Of a DNA stretch of 33,216 nucleotides, positions 2,065-32,300 are shown piece by piece (position 1 is the first letter of the stretch; the number at the start of each line of letters is the position of its first letter). Source of the stretch: Bacteroidota bacterium (GTDB lineage: Bacteria; Bacteroidota; Bacteroidia; Chitinophagales; Saprospiraceae). The position numbers and the translations under genes were made by a program. The stretch is taken from assembly GCA_963169325.1 (NCBI GenBank), contig CAUJEY010000116.1, positions 1 through 33,216 on the forward strand, in the 5' to 3' direction. The notes below the pieces were generated by a model that was given only the letters and a program-made list of their open reading frames with translations, was not told the DNA's origin and ran no database searches.

Positions 2065-2121
2065 CTTAACACTAACTTAAACTGCCTTTCAAGTTGGCTT
2101 AATACAGACTTCGGACTTTTG
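2065..2121 (+). promoter_or_regulatory. PhoB-box-like array of 11-bp direct repeats with overlapping -7 box
   Basis: CTTAA-type units start at 2065 (CTTAACA), 2076 (CTTAAAC), 2087 (TTTCAAG, degenerate), 2098 (CTTAATA) and 2109 (CTTCGGA), exactly 11 bases apart. Direct repeats with an 11-bp period are the known architecture of PhoB binding sites, two per dimer. A degenerate Bacteroidota -7 element (GACTTTTG, consensus TAnnTTTG) sits at 2114-2121, which places the repeats over the -33 region as expected for an activator. The ATG of the TonB receptor follows 23 bases later. Assignment to PhoB is inference; another OmpR-type regulator would use similar geometry. Confidence 0.6.
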
Positions 2122-2144
2122 CACCTGAAAATCTGTATATAACT

Positions 2145-4940
2145 ATGAAACGCAGTTCCAACCTATTATTCAGCATTCTGCTGCTCCTCCCCTTTTTTGT
2201 ACAAGCCCAAAAGGGAACCATTGTCGGAAAAGTTATTGATGCTAAACTCGCCGAAGATCTTATCGGATGCACCGTCAAAATGGACAACGGCGCGGGTGGC
2301 AGCATCACCGACTACGAAGGCCGCTTCATGATTACCAATGTGCCGGCGGGCAAACACTCCCTTACCGTCAGTTACACCGGGTATTCGGAAAAACGTATCG
2401 AAGAAGTTGTCGTAAAAGGTGGCGAAGCCACCACGGTAGACGTCGCGCTCGAAGATGCATCGGCCCAAATGATCGCCGAGGTGGTCGTGACCGCTACGGC
2501 CCAGCGCGCGAGCATGAGCGCACTCACCATTTTGCAAAAAAGCAGCGCGTTCGTCGCCGACGGTATCAGCGCGGAAGTGATCAAACGCACCCCCGACCGC
2601 ACCACCAGCGACGTCATTCGCCGGGTGAGCGGCGCCAGTATTCAAGACAATAAATTCGCCATTATACGCGGCCTCAACGACCGCTACAACATCGCCCTGC
2701 TCAACGGCGCCCTGCTCAGCAGTACCGAGCCCGACCGGAAAGCCTTCTCTTTCGATTTGTTCCCTTCATCTATGCTCGACAACCTGGTGGTCGTAAAAAC
2801 CGCCAGCGCCGACCTGCCGGGCGAGTTTGCCGGCGGCGCTATTTTGGTCAATACCAAAGACATCCCGGACGAAAGTTACGTGCGGGTAAACCTCAGCGGC
2901 GGCTACAACACCGTATCTACGTTCAAACCGTACCAGACCGCCCAGGGTGGCGGCCTCGATTTCCTGGGGACCGACGATGGTACGCGGGCACTGCCGGGAG
3001 GTTTTCCGAGCGCTACCGAATTCCAGGCCTCCGGAAAAGATGAAAAGGTGCGGTTTTCCCAAATGTTGACCAATGACTGGGCGATTACGCAAAAAAGCAG
3101 CGCCGCACCGAACAGTAATATGCAAATCGCATCGGGTTGGGTCACCGCTCCGAATCGCAAAGTGCAGTTCGGTTCCACCTTTGCCGTTTCGTACAGCAAC
3201 CAAAACCGCCTGCAAACCGGTCAGCGCAACGATTTCGATACACAGAGTCAAATCCTGGCGTACGAAGATCAGGAGTTCCGGAACAATGTGTTGTGGGGCA
3301 GCCTGCTGAATACGGCCCTTAAAATCGGGACCCGACACAAGTTAATTTTGCAGGGCACCTACTCTTCCAATGCGACCAGCAGTATTACGGACCGCACAGG
3401 ACGTGAAATCGAACGCGAACAATACGTAAAATATACCTTCAACGAGTACACCGAAAACCACCTGCTCACTTCCCGCCTTGGCGGCGAACACGCCTTCGGT
3501 GCAAACAACATAAAACTTTCCTGGGGTGGCGGGTTCAATCAGATGAACAGCGAAGTGCCCGCTTTACGCCGGATGTTTTATTCAAAACCTTTCGACGCTG
3601 AAGCGGATGCGCCGTTTCGCGCCTTTGTTCCCTTCGGCTCGGCCGACCCGTTCCGCAGTGGCCGTTTTTATTCCAGCCTGTCGGAAGACATCATCAACGG
3701 AAATGTCGATTTGACCATCCCGTTTGCCATCGCCGGCGCCAAACAATCCTTCAAAGCCGGTGGTTTGTATCAAAAGAAAGACCGCGGCTTCAGCGCCAGG
3801 AACCTGGGCTTTATACGCGGTCGTATTGCCGGGTTCAACACTGCGCTGCTCGAATTGCCGCAGGATCAAATTTTCGCTCCGGAGAATATCAATGCCAACG
3901 CATTTCTGCTCGATGAAATTACCAACCCCAGCGATGCTTACAACGCTAATTCGGCGCTCTATTCGGCTTACCTGATGTTCGACAATAAAATCCTCGAAAA
4001 ACTGCGTATCTCCTGGGGGATGCGCCTCGAAGATTTCAGCCAACAGATGGAATCCTTCGAGTATCCCGGCAATACCCCGATAAACATTGATACGAAAGTA
4101 ACCAGCTGGTTGCCCTCGGCCAACCTGACGTACAGCCTCAACGACAAGCACCAGATTCGCTTGTCGGGCTCCAAAACGGTCAGTCGCCCGGAGTTTCGGG
4201 AAATTGCGCCTTTCGCCTTTTTCGATAACCGGCTGTACGCCGCCGTGGTCGGAAATCCGGAACTTATCCCAACGGATGTGTATAATGCCGACCTGCGTTA
4301 TGAAATTTACCCCGGTCAGAATGAATTGTTCAGCGTAAGCCTGTTCTATAAAAAATTCAACAACCCGATCGAATTTACCTTTACCAGCCTGGGCACGGGT
4401 ACGCGTACGTTCTCTTATCAGAATATTCCCAGCGCTGAAAACATCGGCGTGGAACTGGAAATTCGCAAAACGCTCGCTTTTGTCGCTCCGGTGCTTGAAA
4501 ACGTGACCGTCTTTGCAAACGGTACGCTGACGCGCTCTTCGCTGGATTTGTCCAATGTATCCAGATTCGACTCCACCCGTAATTTGCAGGGCCAGTCGCC
4601 ATATATCATCAACGGCGGGATTACCTACAATCATACGAACTGGGGCTTGAGTTCCACGATCGTGTATAATGTGATCGGCGACCGCGTAGCCCAGGTCGGG
4701 ACCGAAGGATACGGCGATGTTTACGAACGTCATCGCCATCTGCTCGACTTCCAGATCAGCAAAACCCTGTGGCGCCGCGGCGAACTCAAACTGACCTGGG
4801 GCGATATTTTCCGTCCCGACTTCATTTACTACCAGGACAACAACGCCAACCACAAATTCGACGAAGGCCAGGGCGACAATGTGATGCAACGGCTCAACCT
4901 CGGCAGCACGGTTACGCTGGGATTTGGGTGGAAGTTTTAA
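2145..4940 (+). CDS. TonB-dependent outer-membrane receptor with CarboxypepD-like N-terminal domain
   Basis: This 931-residue protein has a signal peptide (MKRSSNLLFSILLLLPFFVQ, cleavage after AQ at 22). A CarboxypepD_reg-like beta-sandwich spans ~24-103 (GTIVGKVIDAK ... GSITDYEGRF ... VSYTGYSEK). EVVVTATAQR follows at ~112, then the plug domain (~125-250) with RGLNDRYNIALLNGALL and PGEFAGGAILVNT. A 22-strand-type barrel follows and ends in an aromatic residue (GFGWKF), the usual BamA signal. It should import a ligand across the outer membrane using TonB energy. No SusD-like partner gene is adjacent; the next gene encodes a secreted beta-helix protein. Both genes are preceded by 11-bp repeat arrays, so a nutrient-limitation role, possibly phosphate, is inferred. 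The ligand is not determinable from sequence. Confidence 0.93.
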   Translation: MKRSSNLLFSILLLLPFFVQAQKGTIVGKVIDAKLAEDLIGCTVKMDNGAGGSITDYEGRFMITNVPAGKHSLTVSYTGYSEKRIEEVVVKGGEATTVDVALEDASAQMIAEVVVTATAQRASMSALTILQKSSAFVADGISAEVIKRTPDRTTSDVIRRVSGASIQDNKFAIIRGLNDRYNIALLNGALLSSTEPDRKAFSFDLFPSSMLDNLVVVKTASADLPGEFAGGAILVNTKDIPDESYVRVNLSGGYNTVSTFKPYQTAQGGGLDFLGTDDGTRALPGGFPSATEFQASGKDEKVRFSQMLTNDWAITQKSSAAPNSNMQIASGWVTAPNRKVQFGSTFAVSYSNQNRLQTGQRNDFDTQSQILAYEDQEFRNNVLWGSLLNTALKIGTRHKLILQGTYSSNATSSITDRTGREIEREQYVKYTFNEYTENHLLTSRLGGEHAFGANNIKLSWGGGFNQMNSEVPALRRMFYSKPFDAEADAPFRAFVPFGSADPFRSGRFYSSLSEDIINGNVDLTIPFAIAGAKQSFKAGGLYQKKDRGFSARNLGFIRGRIAGFNTALLELPQDQIFAPENINANAFLLDEITNPSDAYNANSALYSAYLMFDNKILEKLRISWGMRLEDFSQQMESFEYPGNTPINIDTKVTSWLPSANLTYSLNDKHQIRLSGSKTVSRPEFREIAPFAFFDNRLYAAVVGNPELIPTDVYNADLRYEIYPGQNELFSVSLFYKKFNNPIEFTFTSLGTGTRTFSYQNIPSAENIGVELEIRKTLAFVAPVLENVTVFANGTLTRSSLDLSNVSRFDSTRNLQGQSPYIINGGITYNHTNWGLSSTIVYNVIGDRVAQVGTEGYGDVYERHRHLLDFQISKTLWRRGELKLTWGDIFRPDFIYYQDNNANHKFDEGQGDNVMQRLNLGSTVTLGFGWKF

Positions 4941-4946
4941 GTGCTT

Positions 4947-5050
4947 GTGTTTTAGTGTTTTGGTGTTTTAGTGTTTTAGTGTTTTGGTGTTTTAGTGTTT
5001 TGGTGTTTTAGTGTTTTAGTGCGGGCTCAAACACCAAAACACCAAAACAC
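4947..5050. repeat. Nine-unit 8-bp tandem repeat with a complementary arm
   Basis: Immediately after the TonB receptor stop codon, nine units of GTGTTTTR run from 4947 to 5018, with the last base alternating in the order A,G,A,A,G,A,G,A,A. After a short GCGGGCT spacer, 5029-5050 carries the complementary strand of the G-type unit (ACACCAAAACACCAAAACAC at 5031-5050). A transcript could form a long, slippery hairpin. There is no T-run, so it is not a classical terminator, but it may protect the 3' end of the receptor mRNA. The perfect periodicity suggests length polymorphism by replication slippage. Confidence 0.9.
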
Positions 5051-5099
5051 ATTAAGATATACAGATTTCAGTAGTTTAAAGGTTAGGAATTGACTACGC

Positions 5100-5134
5100 A
5101 AATCCGGGTGACGCAAGTTGTCCGGATTTTTTTT
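5100..5134 (+). terminator. Rho-independent terminator downstream of the TonB receptor gene
   Basis: An 8-bp perfect stem AAATCCGG (5100-5107) / CCGGATTT (5122-5129) closes a 14-base loop and runs into eight T residues (5127-5134). It lies 160 bases after the receptor stop codon and 20 bases before the repeat array of the next gene, so the receptor and the beta-helix protein are probably separate transcription units. Confidence 0.75.
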
Positions 5135-5153
5135 GTCGGTCATTTCCCACACA

Positions 5154-5197
5154 CTTAACATTCACTTCATACAGACTTAATCCAAACTTAACCCTCC
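5154..5197 (+). promoter_or_regulatory. Second PhoB-box-like array of four 11-bp direct repeats
   Basis: Units start at 5154 (CTTAACA), 5165 (CTTCATA), 5176 (CTTAATC) and 5187 (CTTAACC), spaced exactly 11 bases. The unit CTTMATACAGACTT is nearly shared with the array before the TonB receptor gene. Two candidate -7 boxes follow: TAATTTCA at 5198-5205, directly abutting the last unit, and GACCTTTG at 5225-5232, which is closer to consensus. The downstream gene begins at 5272. As with the first array, PhoB is the best-known regulator with this repeat geometry, but identity is inferred. Confidence 0.6.
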
Positions 5198-5271
5198 TAA
5201 TTTCAGCCCCCCTTGCAGGTAGGCGACCTTTGCGGCAGTTAAACACAACTTCCAATCTAATTTCACCTGCT

Positions 5272-8181
5272 ATGAAAAAAGCATTTTTACTGCTTACTTT
5301 CCTGTTCGTCGCTCTGCTGCACCTTGATGCTCAAATCGTGGTATCGAGCGACATTACTTCCGATGTTACCTGGACGAAAAACAATACTTATCTCCTTAGC
5401 GGCTTTATTTTTGTAACCAATGGCGCCAAACTCACCATCGAGCCGGGTACGGTCATCAAAGGCGAAAAAGGTAGCAAAGGTTCGCTGATTATTACCCGCG
5501 GTGCGCAGATCATCGCCAACGGAACACCTGCCGATCCGATCGTATTTACCAGCAACGAAGCCTCGCCGAACTACGGCGACTGGGGCGGCATTATTATGCT
5601 GGGTTATGCGTCCACCAATCAGATATATAATGGCGTACCCGGACTGGGGCTGATCGAAGGCGGCCTGGAACCGGCAAAATCCTTGTACGGCGGCGGCGAC
5701 CAACCCGGCGGCGCAAAAGACGACGACAACTCCGGTATCCTGCGTTACGTGCGCATCGAATACGCCGGTGTCGCTTTCCAGCCGAACAATGAGATCAACG
5801 GCCTGACGATGGGCGGTGTGGGCAACAAAACCACTATTGAGTACGTGCAGGTTTCCTACGCCAACGACGATGCTTTCGAATGGTTCGGCGGCACCGTCAA
5901 CTGCAAATACCTGATTGCTTACCGTACCCTGGATGACGATTTCGACTGCGACTTCGGTTATTCGGGTAAAGTACAGTTCGCTTTCTCCTCCCGCGACCCG
6001 CAGGTGGCCGACATCAGCAACTCCAACGGTTTTGAAGTGGACAACAATGCCTCCGGCAGCGGCGCCACGCCCAAAACCCGTCCGACATTCTCTAATGTAA
6101 CTATTGCGGGCCCCTCGGGAACCGTGGCTGCCGACTACCGCCGCGCATCGCACCTGCGTCGGAATACGGAAATAGCCATTTTCAATTCCGTTTTTGTCGG
6201 CCAATATCCCGTCGGGTTGTTCATCGACGGCGATTCCAGCGCCTCGCATGCCCTGAGCGGAAAACTGATCGTCAAAAACAGTTTTTATCACGGCATGGCC
6301 ACCCCGCTGACCACCAATGCTACGGCCGGCGTCGGTTTTGATATCAATGCCTGGGCTACCGCCAACCAGATTTCCACCGGCCCCAACGCGACTGACGCCG
6401 GGTTGATCAACCCGTTCAATGTCGACCTGCCCAATCCGCGCCCGGGTACCGGCTCGCCGGTGCTGAATTATGCTAATTTCAAAACTGATCCCCGAATTCA
6501 GGACCCCTTCTTTACACCGGTCAGTTATGCCGGCGCTTTCGGACCTTCCGGCGACTGGACCTGCCCCTGGGCACGCTGGACCGGCGGTCCGACCGGCGGC
6601 TGCCTGCCTTCCAACCAGGAGGTCGTTGTGGCCGGAAATATAACGTCCAATACCAACTGGACCGCCGACAAAACCTACATCCTCCAGGGCTTTGTTTATG
6701 TCACCAATTGCGCGACCCTGACTATCGCTCCGGGTACCGTAGTGAAAGGCGACAAAGGCTCCAAAGGTTCCCTGATCGTTACGCGTTGCTCCAAAATTAT
6801 TGCCGACGGCACCCGCGACCTGCCGATCGTTTTTACCACCAATGACCCGGATCCGACCTACGGCTCCTGGGGCGGCCTGATCGTCCTGGGTTATGCACCC
6901 ACCAACCAATTGTACAACGGGGTATCCTGCCTGGGCCTGGTAGAAGGCGGTTTGGATCCTGTTTTGGGCCTGTATGGCAGCGGCGACCAACCCGGTGGCT
7001 GCGGTAAAGACGACGACAACTCCGGTATCTTGCGTTATGTGCGCATCGAATATGCAGGTATTGCATTTCAACCGAACAACGAGATCAACGGCCTGACGAT
7101 GGGCGGTGTGGGCAATCAAACCGTCATCGACCATGTGCAGGTGTCGTATGCCAACGACGACGCTTTTGAATGGTTCGGCGGTACGGTCAACTGCAAACAC
7201 CTGATTTCCTACCGCGCACTCGATGACGATCTGGACTGCGACTTCGGCTTCAGCGGCAACATACAACACGTACTGGTCGTACGCGACCCGGAAGTAGCCG
7301 ACGTGAGCAACTCCAACGGTTTTGAAGTAGACAACAACGCCTCCGGCTCCACGGCTACGCCGAAAACGGCGCCGACCTTCTCCAACGTCACCATCGCCGG
7401 CCCAACCGGCGCCGTGGCTGCCGACTACCGCCGCGCCGCGCACCTGCGCCGCAACTGCGAAATCGGTATTTTCAACTCCCTCTTGATCGGTAACTACCCC
7501 GTAGGTCTGTTCATCGACGGCGACGCCACGCTGAACAACGCTAAAAACGGCTTGCTGGAAGTGAAAAACACTTGGGTAGCCGGTCCGACCGAATTGCTAC
7601 GCTCTTCCAATACGATGGTGCTCAATGTAGTCGACTGGTTCAACACTGCCGGCTGGGGCAACGGTTCCGCCGCCAACTCCAGTGCCGCCGCCCTGCAAGA
7701 TCCGTTCAACCTCGACTACCCCAATGCACAACCGACCGGCTTGTCGCCTACCATTGGCGCCGGCGCTGCATCCTTTACCGCAGCCCGTATCAACAAGCCT
7801 TTCTTTGACAAAGTGGCGCACGTAGGCGCTTTCGACGGCACGAACGACTGGACCTGCGGCTGGGCCAAATTCCTGGACGTGAATACCTCCTGCCTGGTGG
7901 AAACCGAAGATGTTGAAAAATACATCAACGGCGTGAAACTGTTCCCGACGGTCGCCAATCAACAGGCTACGCTGCAATTTGTGTTGAACCAGAGTACCGA
8001 CGTGTCGGTGGAGGTGTACAACATTGAAGGCCGGTACTTCGGTCGTCAGATTGATGAAAAAGCCTTTGCAGGCGAACAAACCTACACCCTCAACACGGCT
8101 AACCTGCCGCAAGGTTTCTACTTTGTTCGTATCCAGGCCGGTGCTGCTGTGAAAACGGAAAAAATGATTGTGGTGCGTTAA
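5272..8181 (+). CDS. T9SS-secreted protein with two tandem right-handed beta-helix copies
   Basis: The start at ATG 5272 gives 969 residues and puts a clean signal peptide first (MKKAFLLLTFLFVALLHLDA, Q21). An upstream in-frame TTG would bury it behind 14 residues. Residues ~22-449 and ~450-874 are two copies of one domain. Each opens V(V)xxxITSxxxWTxxxxYxLxGFxxVTN and LTIxPGTVxKGxKGSKGSLI, then DDDNSGILRYVRIEYAG, ANDDAFEWFGGTVNCK, SNSNGFEVDNNASGS and AADYRRAxHLRRN, and ends DWTCxWA. Alternating hydrophobic strands and repeated turns fit a right-handed parallel beta-helix. A linker (VETEDVEKYINGVKLFP) leads to a type A T9SS sorting domain (~885-969, ending LPQGFYFVRIQAG ... KMIVVR). The protein should therefore be exported and anchored at or released from the cell surface. 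No catalytic site is recognised. Linkage to the TonB receptor suggests capture or processing of that receptor's substrate. Confidence 0.9.
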   Translation: MKKAFLLLTFLFVALLHLDAQIVVSSDITSDVTWTKNNTYLLSGFIFVTNGAKLTIEPGTVIKGEKGSKGSLIITRGAQIIANGTPADPIVFTSNEASPNYGDWGGIIMLGYASTNQIYNGVPGLGLIEGGLEPAKSLYGGGDQPGGAKDDDNSGILRYVRIEYAGVAFQPNNEINGLTMGGVGNKTTIEYVQVSYANDDAFEWFGGTVNCKYLIAYRTLDDDFDCDFGYSGKVQFAFSSRDPQVADISNSNGFEVDNNASGSGATPKTRPTFSNVTIAGPSGTVAADYRRASHLRRNTEIAIFNSVFVGQYPVGLFIDGDSSASHALSGKLIVKNSFYHGMATPLTTNATAGVGFDINAWATANQISTGPNATDAGLINPFNVDLPNPRPGTGSPVLNYANFKTDPRIQDPFFTPVSYAGAFGPSGDWTCPWARWTGGPTGGCLPSNQEVVVAGNITSNTNWTADKTYILQGFVYVTNCATLTIAPGTVVKGDKGSKGSLIVTRCSKIIADGTRDLPIVFTTNDPDPTYGSWGGLIVLGYAPTNQLYNGVSCLGLVEGGLDPVLGLYGSGDQPGGCGKDDDNSGILRYVRIEYAGIAFQPNNEINGLTMGGVGNQTVIDHVQVSYANDDAFEWFGGTVNCKHLISYRALDDDLDCDFGFSGNIQHVLVVRDPEVADVSNSNGFEVDNNASGSTATPKTAPTFSNVTIAGPTGAVAADYRRAAHLRRNCEIGIFNSLLIGNYPVGLFIDGDATLNNAKNGLLEVKNTWVAGPTELLRSSNTMVLNVVDWFNTAGWGNGSAANSSAAALQDPFNLDYPNAQPTGLSPTIGAGAASFTAARINKPFFDKVAHVGAFDGTNDWTCGWAKFLDVNTSCLVETEDVEKYINGVKLFPTVANQQATLQFVLNQSTDVSVEVYNIEGRYFGRQIDEKAFAGEQTYTLNTANLPQGFYFVRIQAGAAVKTEKMIVVR
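5335..7893 (+). repeat. Intragenic direct duplication (two copies of about 1.28 kb)
   Basis: Copy 1 covers about 5335-6618 and copy 2 about 6619-7893 within the beta-helix gene. Long blocks stay identical in protein, for example ILRYVRIEYAG and NNEINGLTMGGVGN, while loops have diverged. Five cysteines occur only in copy 2 (see findings). Confidence 0.9.
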
Positions 8182-8256: not shown

Positions 8257-8298
8257 CTTTTACATTTTGACTTTTACATTTTGACTTTTACATTTTCC
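8257..8298. repeat. Three-copy 14-bp tandem repeat
   Basis: CTTTTACATTTTGA is repeated at 8257, 8271 and 8285; the last copy ends CC instead of GA. It lies between the terminator and the tatD start and is AT-rich like a promoter-upstream region. No function can be assigned. Confidence 0.9.
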
Positions 8299-8316
8299 AT
8301 TTCGCCTTAATCCCCC

Positions 8317-14784: not shown

Positions 14785-16224
14785 ATGCGCGATTCACTGC
14801 TCGTTCAAACCTTTCGCACCCTCACCAAACAGGAAAGGCGCGATCTGCGTAAATGGCTCAACAGCCCTTTTTTCAACCAGCGTACCGACGTGACGCGCCT
14901 GTTTGAATACCTGTGCGCCCTGGTACCCGTAGGCGCCGCCGATCTGCCGGAAGCCGTGTTGAACAAAAAGTCGGCATTTATCCAGGTTTTTCCAAACGAA
15001 GACGGGCGCCGTTCGGGCGGATACAAGGATGCGGATATGCGCCATGCCATGTCTTTTTTATATCAGGGGGTCAAAGCGTATTTAGCGTACGCGCATTGGC
15101 GCCAGGATGAGGTGGACGCCGGCCGGCATTTGTGCAAATCCTTGCGCGAACGCGGCCTGGAACTGGTATTTGAAAAAGAATTTGAAGCGCTTGCTGCACA
15201 GCTTTCCAGCGCGCCACACCAAAGTGTGGATTATTTTTTCCAGCAATACCACCTGCGACTCGAACGATGGGAAGTGTATCGCCGCTCCAACCGCGGCGTT
15301 TCGGATCTGATGGAACAGATCGGATCGGCCCGGGATGTTTATATCGCCTCGGAAACGTTGCGTTATGCCTGTGCCGTGCTGGCCCAACCGGGCCGGCAGG
15401 GCCAGGCCGGCGATTCCATTTATTTGCCGGCTACACTCACCGCTGTCGGGGCGGGCGCCTTCAGCCAAACGCCGGCGGTGATGGCTTACTTCCATTGCTA
15501 CCAGATTCTGGGAGAGCAGGATGCTGCGGCGGAACCGCATTTTGAGGCGCTGCGCGACCTGCTGGCGCAACATTGGGCGCTTTTTCCGCCCAATGAGATA
15601 CGTGACTTGTATGTCGGCGCCATTAATTACTGCATCCGCCGGCTCAACAGCGGCGACCGCATTTTCATCCGCGCTGCCCTCGATCTGTATCGCCAGGGGT
15701 TGGAGCGTCGCGTCATTTTTGAAGACGGTTTCCTGAACAAATACACCTACAATAACATCCTGTTGCTCGCCCTGGCGCTGGAAGAATGGGACTGGGCCCT
15801 GCATTTCCTGGAACATTACCGCACCGAACTACCTCCTCGTGAGCGCGATAGTGCCTGGCGCTACAACTTAGCCACCTATTATTTTCGGAAAAAAGACTAT
15901 ACCCAAGCCCAGGAAATTCTGCGAAAGGTGGAATTTCGCGACGTGTTTTATCACCTGGACGCCCGCCGGATGTTGGTCCGTATTTATTTCGACACCGGCG
16001 AACTGGCTGCCCTGGAATCGCTGCTCGACAGTTTTACCATATACCTGCAACGCAAACGCGCTTCCTTAGGTTATCACCGGGAACTGAACCTGAATTTCGT
16101 ACGCTTTGTCAAACGCCTGCTCCGAGTCGCGCCCGGCGACGCGGATGCGCGCGGTCGCCTGCGCACCAAGGTGCTGGCGGCGCAGTACGTGGCGGAAAGA
16201 GATTGGTTGTTGGGGAAATGTTGA
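14785..16224 (+). CDS. Conserved-looking all-helical protein of unknown function
   Basis: This 479-residue protein lacks a signal peptide or membrane segment, so it is probably cytoplasmic. It starts MRDSLLVQTFRTLTKQERRD. It is dominated by amphipathic helices; residues ~340-440 show TPR-like pairs (WALHFLEHYRTELPP, YNLATYYFRKKDYTQAQEIL, ARRMLVRIYFDTGELAALES). It has many Arg, Leu, Tyr and Ala and no catalytic motif that I recognise. Proteins of this shape often act as scaffolds. The upstream gap (14576-14784) is AT-rich and shared with the divergent T9SS gene, so a promoter is likely there. It is followed by a 16-bp repeat and a secreted propeller protein. Confidence 0.75.
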   Translation: MRDSLLVQTFRTLTKQERRDLRKWLNSPFFNQRTDVTRLFEYLCALVPVGAADLPEAVLNKKSAFIQVFPNEDGRRSGGYKDADMRHAMSFLYQGVKAYLAYAHWRQDEVDAGRHLCKSLRERGLELVFEKEFEALAAQLSSAPHQSVDYFFQQYHLRLERWEVYRRSNRGVSDLMEQIGSARDVYIASETLRYACAVLAQPGRQGQAGDSIYLPATLTAVGAGAFSQTPAVMAYFHCYQILGEQDAAAEPHFEALRDLLAQHWALFPPNEIRDLYVGAINYCIRRLNSGDRIFIRAALDLYRQGLERRVIFEDGFLNKYTYNNILLLALALEEWDWALHFLEHYRTELPPRERDSAWRYNLATYYFRKKDYTQAQEILRKVEFRDVFYHLDARRMLVRIYFDTGELAALESLLDSFTIYLQRKRASLGYHRELNLNFVRFVKRLLRVAPGDADARGRLRTKVLAAQYVAERDWLLGKC

Positions 16225-16227
16225 TAT

Positions 16228-16275
16228 GTGTTGATTTGTTGATGTGTTGATTTGTTGATGCGTTGATTTGTTGAG
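16228..16275. repeat. Three-copy 16-bp tandem repeat
   Basis: GTGTTGATTTGTTGAT repeats at 16228, 16244 and 16260, with single-base changes in the third copy (GCG start, final G). It begins four bases after a stop codon, as the 8-bp repeat at 4947 does, and like that repeat its strand is rich in G and T. Function unknown. Confidence 0.9.
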
Positions 16276-21269: not shown

Positions 21270-21395
21270 GTATCTTTTTTAGTTATGATGATGTCCGGTT
21301 TAAGGCGGAAATCATGGGCAACAGAGGCCCTGTTGCTGTTCTTTTATTAAACACCGTGCAAGTTAGTAAAGTTTTGGCGTATTGCCGCCAGTAAA

Positions 21396-23793: not shown

Positions 23794-23872
23794 GATTTAA
23801 TCCTCAACAAGGGTTTTTCGCTCTTGTCCTGCCTGGTTGCCATTTATTTTCATCCATCAAAACGCAACGTCT

Positions 23873-26800
23873 ATGAACCGGCGTCAACAAACCGATTCGC
23901 CCCCCAGCTGGGTACCCGACACTCTGCACGCTTTACCTCAGATTTTTCGCTACTTCCTGCCGATCTTGCTGTTCGGTCTGCTGGTTGTGCCCCTGAGTGC
24001 AAAAGTAACCAACAGTGTTGCCAGCGGCAACTGGAGCGCCCCTGCTACCTGGAACAATGGCGTGCCGGCCGACGGGGACCAGGTCACTATTACGGCAGGA
24101 CATACCGTGACACTCACGGCCAATGTGAATTTTACACTGGCCGGCTCAACCCTGACGGTAAATGGTACGCTCGACCTGAGCACGTTCACCTGCCAGGTGC
24201 TGACCACCTCGGTGGCCGCAGGCGGGCAGGTTACTCAAAATACGACATCGGGTTTGCCGGTTCCGGCCAATCTGACGGCCGTGACGCTGACGCTGAACTC
24301 AGCCAGCACGTACGCCTATACCGGCAATCAAACCGGTTTTACGGGTACGCACCCGATGTACGGTAACGTGTCGTACGCCTCTTCGGCGGCGGGCGCAGGC
24401 ACTTTTGATGTCAACCTGAATATCGCGGGCAACCTCACGATCAATAATAGCGGCGCCGGCGAAATCCGCTTCGGCAACACTACCAACCATTCGCATACTA
24501 TCGGCGGCAACCTGATCCTCACGGCCGGCAATATCGCCGGCTCCAGCGGGACGGCCAATGTCGCTTTGGATATAAACGGCAGTTTTACCATTGCCAATAC
24601 CGCTACGTTTAAAGCCTGCGGGGCAAATGGGAATCTCACCGTCAACCTGGCCGGCAGTTTTACCCAAAACGGTACACTGACGAGCCCGGGCGCAGGTGTT
24701 TTCAACCTGATCTTCGATGGCGCAGCCAACGCCAATATCGGCGGCGCGGCGCCCCTGAGCCTGCCGACCATCACGATGAACAAAACAGCCGGCGCCATTG
24801 CCGCGCTGACCCAGCACCTGACCTTTACCAAAAGCCTGACGTTCCTTTCCGGTAAAATCCGGCTCGGTAACTTCAACCTTACACAGGCCTCCGGCGCCGC
24901 TGCGACCGGCGCTTCCGGCGCCAACGGCTACGCCGAAACTACCGGTACGGGCAAATATATTCTCGTCATGACCACTCCGGGCGGCAATTTCCCCGTCGGA
25001 AACGGCAGTTATACTCCCTTGTCGCTGGTGCTCACCACCTTGTCTTCTACCTTCGGCGTGCGCGTCGACAGCGGATTTTTGGCAGAAATTCCCGGTTGTA
25101 CCGGTTATGTCACCGACGATGCCGTGAAAAAAATGTGGATCGTCACCCGGGAAGCAGGCGCGGCGAACATCTCGGAAATGTATGTGAACTGGAACGGCTC
25201 CGACGAAGGTTCCAGCTTCAACCGGGCTTTGTGCAGTGTGGCACGGTATGTAGGCGGCGACTGGGATACGCAGGTGCCGAATACCGCTACCGGAAGCGAC
25301 CCCTACCAACGGGGCCGCGTTTACGGCTTGGCCAGCACCGTGTTCGAAGGCACCTTCGGCGTAATCGACAATAGTGCATCGGTCAACCTCACGGCGCCCG
25401 CGGGCGTCAGCAACAGCCCCGTATGCGAAGGCCAAACGCTCAACCTCCAACGCACCTCGGTTGCCGTTACCGGAGCCACATACCAATGGGCAAAACAAGG
25501 CGGCGGCTTCAACCCGCCGGCAGGCCCCAATGCCTCTATTAATAACGCACAACTTGGCGACGCCGGCAATTACCTGCTCACCATGAGCAAATACGGCTGT
25601 AATTATACCTCCACGGCAGTGCCGGTGCTGGTCAACCCGAAACCGGTTTGCAATATTACCGGTGATGTCGATGTTTGCGCCAACACGACCGGGCATATAT
25701 ACGCCGCGCCGCCCAGCCTGGCATCCTATGCCTGGGCGATTATCGGCAACGGAACAATTCCCGGCGCGACCAACGGCCCGCAAGTAACCGTAAATGCCGG
25801 TGCGGCGGGCAGTTATAGCCTGAGTCTCACTGTGACGGACATTAATAATTGTTCTTCTACCTGCACCCTGCAAGTCACCGTTTTGCCCCGGCCCACCGGC
25901 ACGTTGAGCGGCACGACGACGATATGCGCCGGCGAAAGCGCCGAATTAAAAATTGAAGTCACCGGCAACGGCCCCTGGAGCGGTACCTTATCGAATGGCA
26001 CGCCGTTTAGCGGCGCCGCCAGCCCCATTTTCGTCAGTGTCACCCCGGCGGGTACCACTGTTTATACGATCAGCACCTTGTCCGACGCTAACTGCCCGGC
26101 CACGCCGAACGACCTGAGCGGCTCGGCAACGGTGACCATCGACGTCCTGCAAATGTTCAACGTCACCGGAGGCGGCCCCTATTGCGACGGTGGCGACGGC
26201 GCGGAAGTATGGATCAGCGGCGGCGAAGCCGGCGTTTCGTATCAGTTACACCTGGACGGGTTCCCTATCGGACTTCCGTTGGACAGTGCCAGCAGCGTCC
26301 CGGTTAGTTTCGGCCCGCAAACGGCTGCCGGAACCTATACGGTAATTGGTACCCGCACCAGCACGGACTGTGAAAAAGCCATGATGGGTTCCGTGGTCGT
26401 GAGCATCCTGCCGCTACCCGTTGTTTCCCTGACCCTGGGCGATGACGAAGCATTAGCCAACGAAACCAACGTCCCGCTTACAGGCGGCGCCCCGGTGGGC
26501 GGCACGTATAGCGGCCCCGGCGTTTCGGGAAGTTTTATCAATCCCTCGGCGGCCGGCATTGGCGAACACACCATTACGTATACCTACACCGACCAGAACA
26601 ACTGCTCCAATTCCGCTACCGACACCTTCAGTATCAGCGCCGTTCCGGGCGTAAATCTGCTTGTGGAAGCGCCGGACAGCGTGGAGTGCGGAGAAAAATT
26701 CAGCGTACAGGTAGTTTCCCTGGCCGGTTTTGAAGACCTCGGCACGTTACAGTTCAGCATTGCCTGGGACACCAGCCTGTTTATGCTCATGGGTGTGGAC

Positions 26801-29146
26801 CCGACCGTGATCGACGGCAGTACGCCGCTGACCGGGATGGTTTCCGACACCTTTATTTATTCCTGGCTGGACGAAAATGACGTCCCCTACGGCGTAACCC
26901 TGCCCGACGATACGGTGCTGTTGCGCCTGAATTTTAAGCCGCTGCACTGCGGGGAGAGCGGCCAATTTAAGATCGTCAACTCGCCCCGTGTGATCGAGGC
27001 GTCCGACGACGGCCTGAATGTGGTGCCGGTTACCGTACTGGGTACCCCGGTTGTTATCGTGACCGACACGGAAGCGCCCGTTTTTGACAGCATTCCGGCA
27101 GATATCACGGTACAATGCAGCGCCGTGCCCGGCCCCGGCGCCCCGGTCGCCACCGACGCCTGCGACACGGCAGTGGTCGTGACCTACGAAGGGCAAACCA
27201 CCACACCCGGAAACTGCGTGGGTAACTATACGATTACCCGTACCTGGCGCGCCACCGACGACTGCGATAATACCACCACTGCCGCACAGGTGATCACCGT
27301 GCGCGATACCCAGCCGCCAACCTTTACCGAACCTGCCGACATCACCATCGCCCTGAATGGCGACTGCGAATACGATGCACCGGCAACCTTGACCGGACAA
27401 ATCAGCAACGCTGCGGATAATTGCAGCCCGGTGGACAGCCTGCGGGCCGTATTTACCGATACCTTCTCAGAGGGCCCCGGCTCCGGCGGCACCATCACCC
27501 GCAACTGGATCGTGATTGATGATTGCGGAAATTCGTCCTCCGGACAAATACAACTGATCACCGTGGTGGACAACACGCCTCCGACGATCACTTGCCCGGA
27601 CGAAGCCTCGGTGGTCTCCGGCAACCAGGATTGTATTTATACGGTCAACGGCACTGATTTCGACCCCGTTACAACGGATAATTGTGGGGTGGATTCGATA
27701 AAATATACCCTGAGCGGCGCCGCCACCGGTTCCGGCAGCGGTTCTTTGAACGGCGTGTTGCTCCCCATCGGAAACACCACGGTCACCTGGACGGTAAGAG
27801 ATATCAACGGCCTCACGGCTTCCTGTTCCTTTACGATTAAAGTACAGGACTGCGCGGGCATCAGCGGCCGGTTGATCTGGGAAGGCGACGATGTTTCCGG
27901 CGTAGCGCAGGCCACGGTTTTCCTCTCCGGCGATGCGGTCGGCTCCGACGGGCCGACGTTCCCCGACGGCCAGTACCTGCTGATCGGCGGCACCAGCGGT
28001 AATTTTGTAGTGACGCCCACCAAACCCTCCCCGCCTGCCGACGCGCTCAACGGTGTTTCGGCTGCCGATGCGCTGGCTATTCAGCAACATTTGTCGCCGA
28101 TCGGGCCATTTATCACCGACCCGTATAAACTGATTGCCGCAGATGTCGACCTCAGCAATTCGGTTACCGGCACCGACGCTTCACTGATCCGGCAGGCTTT
28201 GAAAGGCAGTCCGACCGCTATTGAAATATTTGTGTCGCACCCCTGGCGTTTCGTGCCCACCACCGATCCCGGACCGGGATTCGCGGGCTATTTCCCGCCT
28301 GCCAATCCGTTCACTGCTCCGATTCCTGCGAGCCGGGTTTTGACCGGCGTTGCCGGCGGCGCGGCCGATCAAAACTTTTTCGGTATCAAAATCGGCGACG
28401 TAAACGCCTCTGCCGACCCGGTGTTGCACCCGGAAGATACGGACGACCTCGTCTGGATCGTACAGGATCAAACCCTGGTGGCCGGACAGGAAGTGACCGC
28501 CGTATTCCGCAGCGCGCATTTCAACCAGATATCCGGATACCAGTTTGCCCTGAAATTCGACCCTGCGCAGTTGCAGTGGCTGGGTGTTGAAACGGCCGGC
28601 TCGCCGCTGGGCCTCACGGCTGCCGAACATTTCGGCGCGTACCAGTCTGCCGAAGGCGAAATCCGCAGCGTGTGGATCGACCCCGCCGGTCGCACGGTCG
28701 ACGACGGCCAGCCCGTATTTACCCTGCGGTTCAAAGCCCTGCAAAGCGGCGCCAAACTCAGCGACCTGCTGCGCTTGAAGCCGAAGAGCCTGAATCCGGA
28801 GGCCTACACGATGCAACAAGGCAAAACCGGGTTGGATTTGGTTTTTGAAACGACGACCGGCTTGCCCGTTACCCCGGCTGAAGCCGCGGGCGTACGCTTG
28901 CTGCAAAACCGGCCGAATCCGTTTGCCGGCGTCACCACCATCGGCTTTATCCTGCCGGAATCCTGCGACGCGCAACTGCGCGTGCTGGACGCTGCGGGAC
29001 GCGAACTGCTGCGGATCGACAAAACCTATCCCGCCGGTTACCAGGAAGAATCTATCCGGGTTGAACCCGCTTCGGGTATTTTATACTACGAACTGACCAC
29101 GCCGTTCGGCCAATTGTCGCGGCGTATGGTTGTTGCACAGCGATAA
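23873..29146 (+). CDS. Giant T9SS-secreted adhesin-like protein with Ig, cohesin-like, HYR and dockerin-like modules
   Basis: The start at ATG 23873 gives 1757 residues; an earlier in-frame TTG (23837) adds only 12. The signal segment is FRYFLPILLFGLLVVPLSA (~26-44). Domain order: beta-helix-like repeats (~45-420), Ig/PKD-like domains (~505-925, beginning PVCEGQTLNLQ), and a cohesin-like domain (~927-1060, VECGEKFSVQVVSLAGFEDL). Three HYR domains (~1067-1330) follow, with TDTEAPVFDSIPADITVQCS, DTQPPTFTEPADIT and DNTPPTITCPDEA. A dockerin-like EF-hand region (~1385-1443) contains DVDLSNSVTGTDASLIRQAL. A second cohesin-like domain (~1523-1660, YQFALKFDPAQL) and a T9SS sorting domain (~1670-1757, LLQNRPNPFAGVTTIGF) close the protein. 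It is probably a surface adhesin or scaffold. The long structured leader upstream suggests post-initiation control. Confidence 0.9.
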   Translation: MNRRQQTDSPPSWVPDTLHALPQIFRYFLPILLFGLLVVPLSAKVTNSVASGNWSAPATWNNGVPADGDQVTITAGHTVTLTANVNFTLAGSTLTVNGTLDLSTFTCQVLTTSVAAGGQVTQNTTSGLPVPANLTAVTLTLNSASTYAYTGNQTGFTGTHPMYGNVSYASSAAGAGTFDVNLNIAGNLTINNSGAGEIRFGNTTNHSHTIGGNLILTAGNIAGSSGTANVALDINGSFTIANTATFKACGANGNLTVNLAGSFTQNGTLTSPGAGVFNLIFDGAANANIGGAAPLSLPTITMNKTAGAIAALTQHLTFTKSLTFLSGKIRLGNFNLTQASGAAATGASGANGYAETTGTGKYILVMTTPGGNFPVGNGSYTPLSLVLTTLSSTFGVRVDSGFLAEIPGCTGYVTDDAVKKMWIVTREAGAANISEMYVNWNGSDEGSSFNRALCSVARYVGGDWDTQVPNTATGSDPYQRGRVYGLASTVFEGTFGVIDNSASVNLTAPAGVSNSPVCEGQTLNLQRTSVAVTGATYQWAKQGGGFNPPAGPNASINNAQLGDAGNYLLTMSKYGCNYTSTAVPVLVNPKPVCNITGDVDVCANTTGHIYAAPPSLASYAWAIIGNGTIPGATNGPQVTVNAGAAGSYSLSLTVTDINNCSSTCTLQVTVLPRPTGTLSGTTTICAGESAELKIEVTGNGPWSGTLSNGTPFSGAASPIFVSVTPAGTTVYTISTLSDANCPATPNDLSGSATVTIDVLQMFNVTGGGPYCDGGDGAEVWISGGEAGVSYQLHLDGFPIGLPLDSASSVPVSFGPQTAAGTYTVIGTRTSTDCEKAMMGSVVVSILPLPVVSLTLGDDEALANETNVPLTGGAPVGGTYSGPGVSGSFINPSAAGIGEHTITYTYTDQNNCSNSATDTFSISAVPGVNLLVEAPDSVECGEKFSVQVVSLAGFEDLGTLQFSIAWDTSLFMLMGVDPTVIDGSTPLTGMVSDTFIYSWLDENDVPYGVTLPDDTVLLRLNFKPLHCGESGQFKIVNSPRVIEASDDGLNVVPVTVLGTPVVIVTDTEAPVFDSIPADITVQCSAVPGPGAPVATDACDTAVVVTYEGQTTTPGNCVGNYTITRTWRATDDCDNTTTAAQVITVRDTQPPTFTEPADITIALNGDCEYDAPATLTGQISNAADNCSPVDSLRAVFTDTFSEGPGSGGTITRNWIVIDDCGNSSSGQIQLITVVDNTPPTITCPDEASVVSGNQDCIYTVNGTDFDPVTTDNCGVDSIKYTLSGAATGSGSGSLNGVLLPIGNTTVTWTVRDINGLTASCSFTIKVQDCAGISGRLIWEGDDVSGVAQATVFLSGDAVGSDGPTFPDGQYLLIGGTSGNFVVTPTKPSPPADALNGVSAADALAIQQHLSPIGPFITDPYKLIAADVDLSNSVTGTDASLIRQALKGSPTAIEIFVSHPWRFVPTTDPGPGFAGYFPPANPFTAPIPASRVLTGVAGGAADQNFFGIKIGDVNASADPVLHPEDTDDLVWIVQDQTLVAGQEVTAVFRSAHFNQISGYQFALKFDPAQLQWLGVETAGSPLGLTAAEHFGAYQSAEGEIRSVWIDPAGRTVDDGQPVFTLRFKALQSGAKLSDLLRLKPKSLNPEAYTMQQGKTGLDLVFETTTGLPVTPAEAAGVRLLQNRPNPFAGVTTIGFILPESCDAQLRVLDAAGRELLRIDKTYPAGYQEESIRVEPASGILYYELTTPFGQLSRRMVVAQR

Positions 29147-29187: not shown

Positions 29188-29317
29188 CTACCGGGAATTT
29201 TATGAGGAAACCATGCTTCTTTAATTTTTTATAATGCCCCTGTTCGCTATGGGAAATATGCTACAATTTTTACCTTTTACCCAAAACAAAGGCCGTAATC
29301 TGATTTTTATCCCCAAT

Positions 29318-32300
29318 ATGCCGGCACTTACCTGCAGGGCTATATCCTCTTTGATATTGTTGGGCGCCCTGTTCACCGCTCCATTTGCACTGCAGGGGCA
29401 AATTTATACCTTCACAAACGATGCGAACGGCGCGCCGGCAACGGTGGCCCTGCATGCTACCGGGGGGAGTCTCACTCGCGGAAGCGGCGTGTTAGGTACC
29501 GGGTTGAATTGTAGCGGCGCTACGGAAGGTTTCGGCGCCGAGAACTGGCCCAATCCCACTTACGCCGACGCAGCAAGCATTGACAGCTCAAATGCGAACG
29601 GCGAGTATATTCAATTTATCCTGAAACCGAATCCCGGCTTCCGCCTGTATGTTACGGATTTCGTCGCTTCTACCCGGCATACCGGTAACACAGGCGATTC
29701 ACGTGGGCCCCGGGAAGTGGCTTATGCCTACAGCACCGACGGGACGAACTTCTTTAATTTTACCGGTCCGTTTATCCCGGAACAAGGTGGGGGATGCGCA
29801 GCAACCGGACTGACTCACCCTTGGGACAGTTTCCCAGCGATAAGTATTTTAGATTCTATCGTTTTCCGTATTTATGGATACGATGCAGGCTCGAACGGTA
29901 CTGGCGATTTGTATCTTTATGATATTACGGTCGGCGGCAGTGTTTGCGCCGGGCTTGAATTGGAAGCCACGGCTCCGACCACCGTTCAGTGCGGCGATAC
30001 GACGACCGTCGTGATAAAGGCCAACAGCGGTTTTTGCGGATTGACTTCGCTGGATTTTTCAATTAATTGGGATACCGCGCAGTTTCAGTACGTTACACAT
30101 GTTGCTACGACCATTGATGCTGAAGACCCGGCCGTAGGAACCGGTGATGTTGCCATCGGGGAAATGATTTTCAGCTGGGCGGATGCCAGCCTTCCTTGCG
30201 GCGCTTCTCTCCCCGACGATACCACGCTGCTGACGGTTTCCTTAAAAGCAAAAGGTTGCCCGGCATCACCAACGACTGTTTTGATCAGTAATGATCCACT
30301 GAGCATCGAGGCCGGTGATTGCAGTTTCCTTGAACCGGTGTCCGTAACAGTATTGAACAATGCAACAATTTTGGTCCAGGACACGGAGCCGCCGGTGCTT
30401 ACCTGCCCGGCTGCTGATCTCACTTTGGAATGTGATCCAATGGGAATCGACATGGATGCCATTCTGAATTGGCTCGACGAGGCAAGCGCAGAAGACGCCT
30501 GCAGCGGAACGGTTGAAGTGATGCCTGAATACGACAGTGTTATGCCGCTGGAATTGTGCGGACAGCAAGGCCGCGAGGTGCTTTTTCATGCAATAGATGA
30601 TTGCGACAACGAGACGGAATGTACCAGGTATATTTTTCTTGTAGATTCAGAAGCGCCAGTGCTCACTTGCCCGGGTCCTTTAACGGCGGTCTGTAGCGGC
30701 GACGAGCAAACGCCTTATGCTGATTTTGCAGCGTTTGAAATGGCCGGCGGCAGCGCTATGGATGGCTGTGCCCTGGACGAGGCGACATTTGTGCTGCTGG
30801 GGGAAGGTACTAATGAAAATACCTGTCCGGAAGTGCTGACACGCACCTATAGCATTTCAGATTTCTGTGACAATACAGGTATTTGTACACAAACCATTAC
30901 CGTGGATGACAATATCAACCCGGTAATCACTACCTGTGCCGTGACCCGAAACATAGAAGGCTGCGGTCCGGACGCCATCACTGACCCGGCGTATTCGGCC
31001 ACCTTGGCGTCCTCTTCGGAAGCCGAATTTGAGAACGGCACCAATCAGGGTGATGCCTCCGATCCCTGCGGGATTACTGAGGTGTCTTATATCGATGTCG
31101 TGGGAACGGGTACCTGCCCCATCGTGGTCAGCCGCACCTGGACGATCACCGATGCCTGCGGCAATTCCGCAATCTGCACGCAGACGATCAACGTGGACGA
31201 CAATACGGCGCCCACCTGGACGACAGCATCAGACGCTTTGGATATAACGGTGGAATGCAGTGATATTAACGGCCTTGCAGCAGCACAACTCCTGGTGCCT
31301 GTGGCATCGGACGTTTGCGACAACGACGTAACCAATATTGAAAAAATAACGGGCGCCTTTGTAGCCGGTACGGTCTGCCCGCAAGAAGGCACCTACACGA
31401 ATACCTGGACGGTGACCGACGATTGCGGCAACACGAGCACGGTATTTACCCAGATCATCACGGTAACCGACAACACGCCCCCCACCTGGACTACCCCGGC
31501 AGGCAATCTGGACCGTACGGTGGAATGCAGTAATGCCACCGGGCTGACTAATGCCCAGGCGCTTTTCCCCGTAGCCGCCGACAATTGCGACCTCACGGTG
31601 AGTGCGTTGAACAAAGTCTCCGGTCCTTTTGTACCGGGCATGACCTCCTGCCTGCAGGCCGGGACCTACACGAATACCTGGACGGTAACCGACGATTGCG
31701 GCAACACAAGCACCACCTACACACAAGTGATCACGGTGACAGATACGCAGGCGCCGACATGGGTAACCGTTGCCGGCACATTGAATCGCACCGTGCAATG
31801 TAGCGATGCCGGCGGCCTGGCCGCTGCCCAAACCCTGGAACCCGTGGCTACCGATAACTGCGATTTGTTGTTGGAGCCTGTTAAAAGTGCCGGGACCTTC
31901 CAACCCAATGTGGGCTGCGCCTACACGGGCACTTACACCAACGTCTGGACCGTAACCGATGATTGCGGTAACACCAGTACGACATTTACACAAATAATTA
32001 CGGTCATAGATGACCAGGTTCCGACCTGGACCACGGCGGCCGGATCGCTGGACCGCGCGGTCGAATGCAGCGATCTGTCTGGATTGACGGTTGCACAGGG
32101 ACTTTTCCCGGTGGCAGCCGATAATTGCGATCCCGATGTGACTAATATTGTTAAAACCTCCGGCTTTTTCACCCCCGGCACACCTTGCCCCCAGGAAGGT
32201 ACCTACACCAATACCTGGACGGTAACGGACGATTGCGGCAATACCAGCCTGGTATTTACGCAAGTGATCACCATTACCGATGATACTGCGCCGATATGGG

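Follow-up and report, generated by a model that had tools for sequence, protein, structure and literature searches.

Two neighboring genes, one encoding a TonB-dependent receptor (TBDT) and the other a 969-aa secreted protein, each lie downstream of an array of 11-bp direct repeats in the 33,216-nt stretch of DNA analyzed here (“the window”; Table 1). A preliminary description treated the genes as separately terminated, in line with the terminator-like hairpin between them, and called the receptor SusC-like, a label that the family models do not support. Against the SusC/RagA model TIGR04056, the receptor scores 48.8 bits (cut-off, 368.25 bits), over residues 25–126 only (i.e., the N-terminal domain), and the SusC signature TIGR04057 finds no match in it in the NCBIfam search. 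The nearest NCBIfam model is TIGR01782, itself below cut-off. The first domain of the secreted protein is modelled as a beta-helix in the predicted structure, and its T9SS type A sorting domain scores above the cut-offs of TIGR04183 (39.3 bits; cut-off, 23) and PF18962 (38.7 bits; cut-off, 27). This tail is the only part matched in Pfam, which gives no SusD-family assignment, and the absence of a cysteine from the signal region means that the protein is not classed as a lipoprotein. The beta-helix protein of the window is duplicated, T9SS-tagged, and separately promoted.

Table 1. Features of the receptor/beta-helix locus, in window coordinates
Feature	Position	Strand	Remarks
Array 1 (putative Pho boxes, receptor gene)	2065..2108	+	Four 11-bp units: CTTAA, CTTAA, TTTCA, CTTAA
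Proposed −7 element of the receptor promoter, GACTTTTG	2114..2121	+	Compared with TAnnTTTG
TonB-dependent receptor	2145..4940	+	CarboxypepD_reg-like domain, plug, barrel (Pfam, NCBIfam)
Terminator-like hairpin, then T run	5100..5129	+	Separates the two genes; shuffles of the stretch, mean 0.4
Array 2 (putative Pho boxes, beta-helix gene)	5154..5197	+	Four 11-bp units: CTTAA, CTTCA, CTTAA, CTTAA
Proposed −7 element of the beta-helix gene promoter, GACCTTTG	5225..5232	+	
969-aa secreted protein	5272..8181	+	Two homologous domains and a T9SS type A sorting domain; start is the ATG at 5272

Read directly, array 1 consists of the units CTTAACACTAA, CTTAAACTGCC, TTTCAAGTTGG, and CTTAATACAGA, starting at 2065, 2076, 2087, and 2098, and array 2 of CTTAACATTCA, CTTCATACAGA, CTTAATCCAAA, and CTTAACCCTCC, starting at 5154, 5165, 5176, and 5187. 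Both 11-base-period runs in the preliminary description are real, as is its shared sub-sequence, present in the two arrays as the 10-mer ATACAGACTT (2102–2111 and 5169–5178), but the fifth unit that it assigned to array 1 (CTTCGG at 2109) is weak and extends into the −7 element. When up to 3 mismatches are allowed, a three-unit pattern matches the window five times; four matches lie inside the arrays, and the remaining one is at 21278 on the minus strand, with 3 mismatches. Dinucleotide shuffles, used as the control, yield a mean of 0.42 matches, and none of 100 reaches 5. The window also has intergenic satellites, one of which, with the 8-bp unit GTGTTTTA, is at 4947–5021, near array 2.

The −7 element of Bacteroidota promoters has the form TAnnTTTG. 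Measured from the T[AC]A of a unit to the G of TTTG, the units of array 1 (2065–2098) lie at 54, 43, 32, and 21 nt, and those of array 2 (5154–5187) at 76, 65, 54, and 43 nt; i.e., both arrays fall in one common register of 21+11k nt. The same placement is found in relatives. Among 101 receptor upstream regions sampled for phase, 35 have no run of three units and 15 more have no TTTG in range; in 44 of the other 51, the distance between the end of the array and the TTTG G is 21, 32, or 43 nt. Similarly, 28 of 35 arrays before beta-helix genes end 21, 32, or 43 nt from TTTG. There is no such distance peak for TTTC, TTTA, GTTT, AAAC, or CAAA (at most 4 arrays at one distance), and TTGC tracks TTTG with an offset of one base.

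We scanned the organism’s own genome (8.07 Mb) for CTTMA-CTTAA pairs with an 11-bp period ahead of TTTG. Nine of the 18 matches are linked to phosphorus, two of them being the window sites, and nine have no evident link. The other linked matches precede pstSC (PstS, TIGR02136, 209 bits; cut-off, 206.6); a PHO4 permease gene; separately, a unit of porin O/P and PHO4; genes for a PhoB-like response regulator and a histidine kinase; a metallophosphoesterase gene; a TBDT gene adjoining a phytase-like gene and TIGR03364/TIGR03351 (phosphonate-type) genes; and a SusCD pair in that same cluster. The box of a PhoD phosphatase gene was found by a different pattern. Both PHO4 matches of the genome and its sole PstS above cut-off are in boxed units; PhoU was not found in this genome. 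The boxes of pstSC, both PHO4 units, PhoD, porin O/P, and the best PhoB-like response regulator share one register within ~2 nt, and the PhoB-like regulator promoter has 17 bases identical to array 1, or 20 with the flanking AAA. A control with a 12-bp period gave 3 matches, none linked to phosphorus. Backwards versions of three patterns gave 25, 5, and 11 matches vs 18, 8, and 18 for the forward ones. Because backwards patterns match often, the counts alone are weak, and it is the gene content that carries the argument.

Conservation was assessed in two sets of loci. The first comprised 40 regions from 37 of 163 genomes with a match (the own genome counted), picked for score and long contigs, and the second comprised the top 80 from a list of at least 592 loci. 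With genes near contig ends dropped, these gave 37 receptor and 43 beta-helix upstream regions, and 64 and 74, respectively. A matrix built from 5 own-genome sites outside the window scored ≥10 at period 11 in 23 of the 37 receptor upstreams, vs 2–7 at six other periods, and in 17 of the 43 beta-helix upstreams, vs 1–10 at other periods. In the same 37 receptor upstreams, 87 pairs of TAA are spaced by 11 nt, vs 6–19 at spacings that are not multiples of 11. For the 64 named receptor upstreams from the best 80 loci, TAA pairs at spacings of 11, 22, and 33 nt number 168, 122, and 81, vs 9–30 at other spacings, and 43 of these upstreams have runs of at least three units, vs 0–3 at nine other periods; the corresponding count for the 74 beta-helix upstreams from those loci is 26, vs 0–8. 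Sorted by the gap ahead of the beta-helix gene, arrays are present in 0 of 45 cases with gaps <60 nt, which is partly expected since the stretch scanned is then mostly receptor coding sequence, 27 of 46 with gaps of 60–400 nt, and 1 of 3 beyond.

Further scans of relatives gave mixed results. Strict arrays of three TTAAC units are not enriched across 99 genomes (20, vs 17 for the backwards control), and 29 PHO4 upstreams of relatives have no clear 11-bp periodicity (10 TAA pairs at 11 nt vs 1–9) and no three-unit runs. Only 3 of 29 PstS-family upstreams of relatives have a three-unit run. In the 12 upstreams of PstS genes above cut-off, there are 16 TAA pairs at 11 nt vs 1–9 at other spacings, and 3 have three-unit runs.

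The preliminary description had suggested a phosphate regulon, to be supported by matches upstream of pstS or phosphatase genes and before orthologues of the pair. Both kinds of match are present, the former in the own genome (pstSC, PhoD, and the metallophosphoesterase) and the latter in relatives, and boxes also lie at the PHO4 and PhoB-like genes. Given the repeats, their exact TTTG phasing, their presence at phosphorus genes, and their conservation before the pair, all visible in the DNA itself, the arrays are very probably Pho boxes, i.e., 11-bp half-sites of a PhoB-like regulator of the OmpR family, at two promoters activated at low phosphate. When phosphate is scarce, the regulator, in its phosphorylated form, would line up head-to-tail on one face of the DNA, immediately before the −7 element, and would activate in parallel the promoters of the receptor gene and of the gene for the T9SS-exported double beta-helix protein. 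On the cell surface, the latter may bind or process a phosphorus compound that its partner receptor would import. Its close pairing with the receptor suggests that it may take the place of SusD.

An alternative concerns the cargo. The pair might import a metal or a glycan and merely be co-regulated in phosphate starvation, which we consider possible but unlikely. Neither protein matches a phosphatase family in Pfam or NCBIfam, and the fold matches of the beta-helix model are, among the matches listed, mostly carbohydrate-active enzymes and phage tailspikes, along with NosD; a shared fold, however, shows no function. Related systems argue for phosphorus: Caulobacter ElpS is produced in phosphate starvation and is linked to phosphatase activity (PMC2996285), and in Flavobacterium johnsoniae, TBDTs are induced under Pi depletion only, and limitation of N and Fe represses related lipoproteins (PMC8115612).

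It is improbable that the arrays are sites of a different OmpR-family regulator, responding, for example, to envelope or metal stress, with a similar 11-bp TTAA-rich site that overlaps phosphate genes by chance. The genome is rich in response regulators (TIGR02154 has 75 matches, many to receiver domains only), and other 11-bp CTTA runs, on C131, C179, and C317, have no evident phosphate link; the C317 run, a near-palindromic CTTAAG site variant, faces the gene for the second-best PhoB-like response regulator. The candidate regulator, on C89, scores below the PhoB cut-offs of TIGR02154 (226.8 bits; cut-off, 296.2) and NF053854 (221.2 bits; cut-off, 270), which are nevertheless its best two NCBIfam matches, and its kinase partner is below the PhoR cut-offs. 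Against a different regulator stand the common box register of the phosphate genes described above and the fact that no single other stress obviously accounts for the boxed gene set. Chance or neutral tandem repeats, which the intergenic satellites of the window, including GTGTTTTA, might bring to mind, can be dismissed, since conservation is limited to the first bases of each unit, the TTTG phase is exact, and the arrays recur in many genomes with differing inter-unit sequence.

A broader picture can be drawn, which we regard as having an even chance of being correct: the Bacteroidota have a Pho promoter of their own, and its regulon includes a widespread importer, distinct from SusCD, of a TonB receptor and a beta-helix protein, spanning Bacteroidota and Proteobacteria, with the partner’s surface route swapped by lineage. 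At such a promoter, PhoB-like regulators would stack on two to six 11-bp units, 21+11k nt from TTTG, replacing the −33 element. The beta-helix partner would reach the surface as a lipoprotein, by a T9SS tag, or by a T2SS-linked route, depending on the lineage. A TBDT homologue is present at 37 of the 40 beta-helix loci and at 70 of the top 80 (from at least 592). By a lipobox regular expression and a home-made tail profile, 59 of 114 complete beta-helix homologues carry just a lipobox and 45 just a T9SS tail, whereas 3 have both and 7 neither. A search of the open-access literature, in the texts available, returned no consensus for a Bacteroidota Pho box. Because members of this phylum break down much organic matter, a usable definition would be of value for recognizing their phosphate-stress genes in genomes and metagenomes. 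The widespread orphan pair of a TonB receptor and an ElpS-like beta-helix partner also becomes directly testable as a SusD-free phosphorus-scavenging importer.

The PHO boxes of PhoB, PhoP, and SphR (in E. coli, Bacillus, and Synechocystis) consist of at least two 11-nt direct repeats (PMC4415409), a form shared by both window arrays. The unit of Synechocystis SphR, CTTAACCT plus a 3-bp linker, is almost the same as the window unit (PMC1906773). Those boxes are tied to a sigma-70 −10 element, whereas the window arrays are locked to TTTG at 21+11k nt, and a window array may extend across the site that a −33 element would occupy. Within the phylum, Bacteroides fragilis PhoRB controls pst, and its PhoB binds the pstC promoter in EMSA, with no binding-site sequence given in the available text (PMC3547664). 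Pho boxes were predicted bioinformatically at plcP clusters in an earlier survey of marine isolates, one of them a flavobacterium; the accessible part of that report gives neither a consensus sequence nor the phyla with predicted boxes (PMC4796936).

The preliminary description called the beta-helix protein a novel surface protein, which is too strong: Caulobacter ElpS/Cc0171 is an earlier description of the family and of its pairing with a TonB receptor (PMC2996285), and for Flavobacterium, TBDTs of low-phosphate conditions have been reported together with the pectin-lyase-fold lipoproteins FI and FII (PMC8115612). The pair is therefore not new, being the counterpart of Cc0171/ElpS and, by description, of Flavobacterium PUSIII/IV. 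In F. johnsoniae PUSIII and PUSIV, a low-phosphate TBDT gene is clustered with that of a related lipoprotein; FII is listed with IPR011050, PUSIV adjoins phoBR, and the authors note modest homology of FI, FII, and FIII to the Caulobacter lipoprotein, while the sections available describe no box (PMC8115612). FI and FII are lipoproteins (PMC8115612), whereas the window protein is T9SS-tagged, and the likeness is one of description. Caulobacter crescentus ElpS (Cc0170) is an extracellular protein encoded next to the TonB receptor Cc0171, a co-occurrence noted by the authors, and a surface lipoprotein whose release is aided by the T2SS (PMC2996285). By contrast, the window protein is T9SS-tagged and lacks a lipobox. 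Both window genes are boxed, whereas cc0171 expression is reported, in the Discussion of that study, to be alike in rich and poor media and not to follow phosphate (PMC2996285). The same layout as in the window, a beta-helix gene adjoining a TBDT gene, recurs in alphaproteobacterial plasmid clusters of the BH-TBDT-T2SS type; the Indioceanicola cluster encodes homologues of both window proteins, its TBDT being 28% identical to the window receptor over 821 columns.

Both of the 11-bp arrays claimed in the preliminary description are present, one ahead of the TonB-dependent receptor (TBDT) gene and one ahead of the beta-helix gene, but the fifth unit that it placed in array 1, at 2109, is only a weak one that adjoins the −7 element. 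Allowing up to three mismatches, a three-unit CTTAA pattern has five matches in the 33-kb window, against a shuffle mean of 0.42, with none of 100 shuffles reaching five. The table also lists neighboring features, including intergenic tandem satellites of 7–16 bp with varied units; similar satellites occur elsewhere in the genome, upstream of the regulator in locus L122 and downstream of the L131 site, and several of the whole set lie near promoters.

Coordinates of the features discussed (window positions unless a contig is named)
Feature	Position	Remarks
Remnant with group II intron maturase-specific domain	288-716	PF08388, E 1.4e-15
Array 1	2065-2108	Sound units read directly at 2065, 2076, 2087 (TTTCA) and 2098; 54/43/32/21 nt from TTTG
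TBDT gene	2145-4940	
Tandem satellites	4947-5050; 8257-8302; 16219-16274	
Terminator-like hairpin	5100-5129	Between receptor and beta-helix genes
Array 2	5154-5197	Four units read directly, 5154-5187; 76/65/54/43 nt from TTTG
Beta-helix gene	5272-8181	
Two very large repeat-rich ORFs	23837-29146; 29234-33214	Probably secreted proteins
Phosphorus island (L039, L027)	C153:26000-52000	

The arrays are strictly phased with the promoter. In Bacteroidota, the −7 element is TAnnTTTG, and we define register as the distance from the T[AC]A of a unit to the G of TTTG. A run of at least three units occurs in 66/101 receptor upstreams, with TTTG in range for 51 of those 66. In 44 of these 51, the last T[AC]A lies exactly 21 nt (30 cases), 32 nt (12) or 43 nt (2) from that G; for beta-helix arrays, 28/35 lie at the same three distances (12, 11 and 5, respectively). 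In the same upstreams, no equivalent peak was found for TTTC, TTTA, GTTT, AAAC or CAAA, and a TTGC peak trails that of TTTG by one base, as part of TTTGC. Both window arrays are in register, and sites elsewhere in the same genome hold it within about 2 nt. Since the array stands at a fixed distance from the −7 element, it would overlie the −33 region, as would be expected of an activator that replaces the −33 element.

Within the 8.07-Mb draft assembly (349 contigs), a pattern of two units tied to a downstream TTTG has eight matches. These precede genes for a PHO4 phosphate permease and PhoD; both window genes; a TBDT whose neighbors are a gene for a phytase-like secreted protein and others of phosphonate type (TIGR03364, TIGR03351); a SusC/SusD pair from that cluster; porin O/P, with a second PHO4 permease behind it; and the OmpR-family regulator C317, which has the second-best PhoB score and a near-palindromic CTTAAG variant as its site. 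A wider pattern has 18 matches, compared with three for a 12-bp-period control; its additions include pstSC (PstS scoring 209 bits against a cut-off of 206.6), a calcineurin-type metallophosphoesterase and C89, whose PhoB score is the highest of any response regulator in the genome. The box lies upstream of pstSC and of phosphatase genes, places that the preliminary description named as ones that would support its reading. Array 1 and the C89 promoter have 17 identical bases in common, and after the C89 gene comes one for a PhoR/PnpS-like kinase; both proteins score below their family cut-offs. Both PHO4 matches in the genome, and the only PstS over the cut-off, are in boxed units. Nine of the 18 sites are phosphorus-linked, counting both window sites; the other nine, with no evident link of that kind, are those at a CarboxypepD_reg protein, hutH and a DUF4261 gene, and six probable background sites. 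By rough arithmetic, rather than a test, 18 matches on both strands amount to about 3 in 10,000 per 300-bp promoter. Backwards versions of three patterns gave 25, 5 and 11 matches, compared with 18, 8 and 18 forward; because these match so often, the argument for a Pho box rests on the identity of the genes and not on counts.

Other motifs were seen in the same genome. Further 11-bp CTTA(A/G)A runs occur at L001/L111 (C317), L010 (C131) and L015 (C179), one of them before an OmpR-family regulator gene, which suggests that the genome has a second regulator, whose site is related but not the same. The sites L131 (C217, before hutH) and L130 (C210, just beyond what we take by eye to be hutI) both contain CTTAACG(C/T)CACCTTAA, possibly a separate histidine-utilization signal. 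The C153 island encodes a phytase-like T9SS protein (at least 2274 aa), a TBDT, a TIGR03364 oxidoreductase, a PhnX-like hydrolase and a DUF5690 protein, followed by the boxed SusC/SusD pair; its content suggests a phosphonate importer.

Beta-helix homologues were found in 163/198 genomes of the order, own genome included, at E <= 1e-20. A TBDT homologue is present at 37/40 hand-chosen beta-helix loci (37 genomes) and at 70/80 named loci (the best 80 of at least 592), several of the others ending at contig edges. Judging by record titles, the loci presumably span Chitinophagales, Cytophagales, Sphingobacteriales, Bacteroidales, Flavobacteriales, and Ignavibacteria or Chlorobiota. Upstream of these orthologues the 11-bp periodicity proposed earlier is kept, more clearly for receptors than for beta-helix genes. 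A unit matrix was built from five sites that lie in the same genome but not in the window; at a score >=10 it matched 23/37 receptor upstreams at period 11, and six other periods gave 7, 5, 3, 3, 2 and 2. For beta-helix upstreams the corresponding figures, 17/43 versus 1–10, show a weaker contrast. TAA-TAA spacings of 11/22/33 number 87/47/26 in 37 receptor upstreams (other spacings 6–19) and 168/122/81 in 64 named receptor upstreams from the best 80 of at least 592 loci (others 9–30). At other phosphate genes, comparison across genomes gave weak or negative results: relatives' PstS genes over the cut-off (12 upstreams) have an 11-bp peak of 16 versus 1–9, with a three-unit run in just 3/12, and no clear 11-bp peak was found in 29 PHO4 upstreams.

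Of 108 beta-helix genes that have a receptor gene nearby, 94 lie downstream of it on the same strand, nine ahead of it and five on the opposite strand. The beta-helix gene has its own array in 0/45 cases with gaps <60 nt, partly since the scanned stretch is coding, in 27/46 with gaps of 60–400 nt (19/29 and 8/17), and in 1/3 with gaps >400 nt. The window pair is of the larger-gap kind. Because a terminator-like hairpin parts its two genes, each array probably drives its own gene, and the pair is apparently an operon split by a terminator, with the second array preserving co-regulation. Most likely, the PhoB-like regulator C89, boxed at its own gene, would activate both genes in phosphate starvation, for which the sequence evidence is strong. 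The external beta-helix protein would then most likely capture or trim a phosphorus source for the receptor, judging by the pairing and by work in Caulobacter and Flavobacterium.

The principle of 11-nt direct repeats is already known (PMC4415409), and the SphR unit, CTTAACCT (PMC1906773), is almost the same word as the window's box unit. Bacteroides fragilis PhoB binds the pstC promoter (PMC3547664), and Pho boxes were predicted earlier at plcP clusters of marine bacteria, in work whose isolates took in a flavobacterium (PMC4796936); the available text of these papers gives neither the site sequence nor the consensus, respectively. No Bacteroidota Pho-box consensus was found in the available portions of the open-access literature searched. 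New here are the box with its strict phasing and the way this regulon is read; the gene pair, whose surface protein was earlier called novel, is already known from descriptions in Caulobacter (cc0170/cc0171) and F. johnsoniae.

Predicted surface routes are nearly mutually exclusive among 114 complete homologues: 59 have only a lipobox, 45 only a T9SS tail, three both and seven neither. On Indioceanicola and Sphingomonas plasmids, the beta-helix homologue adjoins an annotated TonB-dependent receptor, and type II secretion genes come after them; in Pseudoalteromonas the homologue sits beside ExbB/ExbD/TonB genes. The Indioceanicola protein is also double-domain (32% identity over 949 columns to the window protein; receptors, 28% over 821). 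The plasmid layout is the one reported from Caulobacter, where, in the available text, cc0170 (elpS), cc0171 and gsp genes lie together, and ElpS is made under phosphate starvation and tied to phosphatase activity (PMC2996285). In F. johnsoniae, as far as the available text goes, Pi depletion draws a response from TBDTs and from the related lipoproteins FI/FII, while limitation of N or Fe does not, and the authors compared FI/FII with the Caulobacter protein (PMC8115612). From this layout, the homology to the Indioceanicola pair and the F. johnsoniae work, we take the window pair to be a Bacteroidota variant of the Caulobacter/Flavobacterium type: duplicated, T9SS-tagged and separately promoted.
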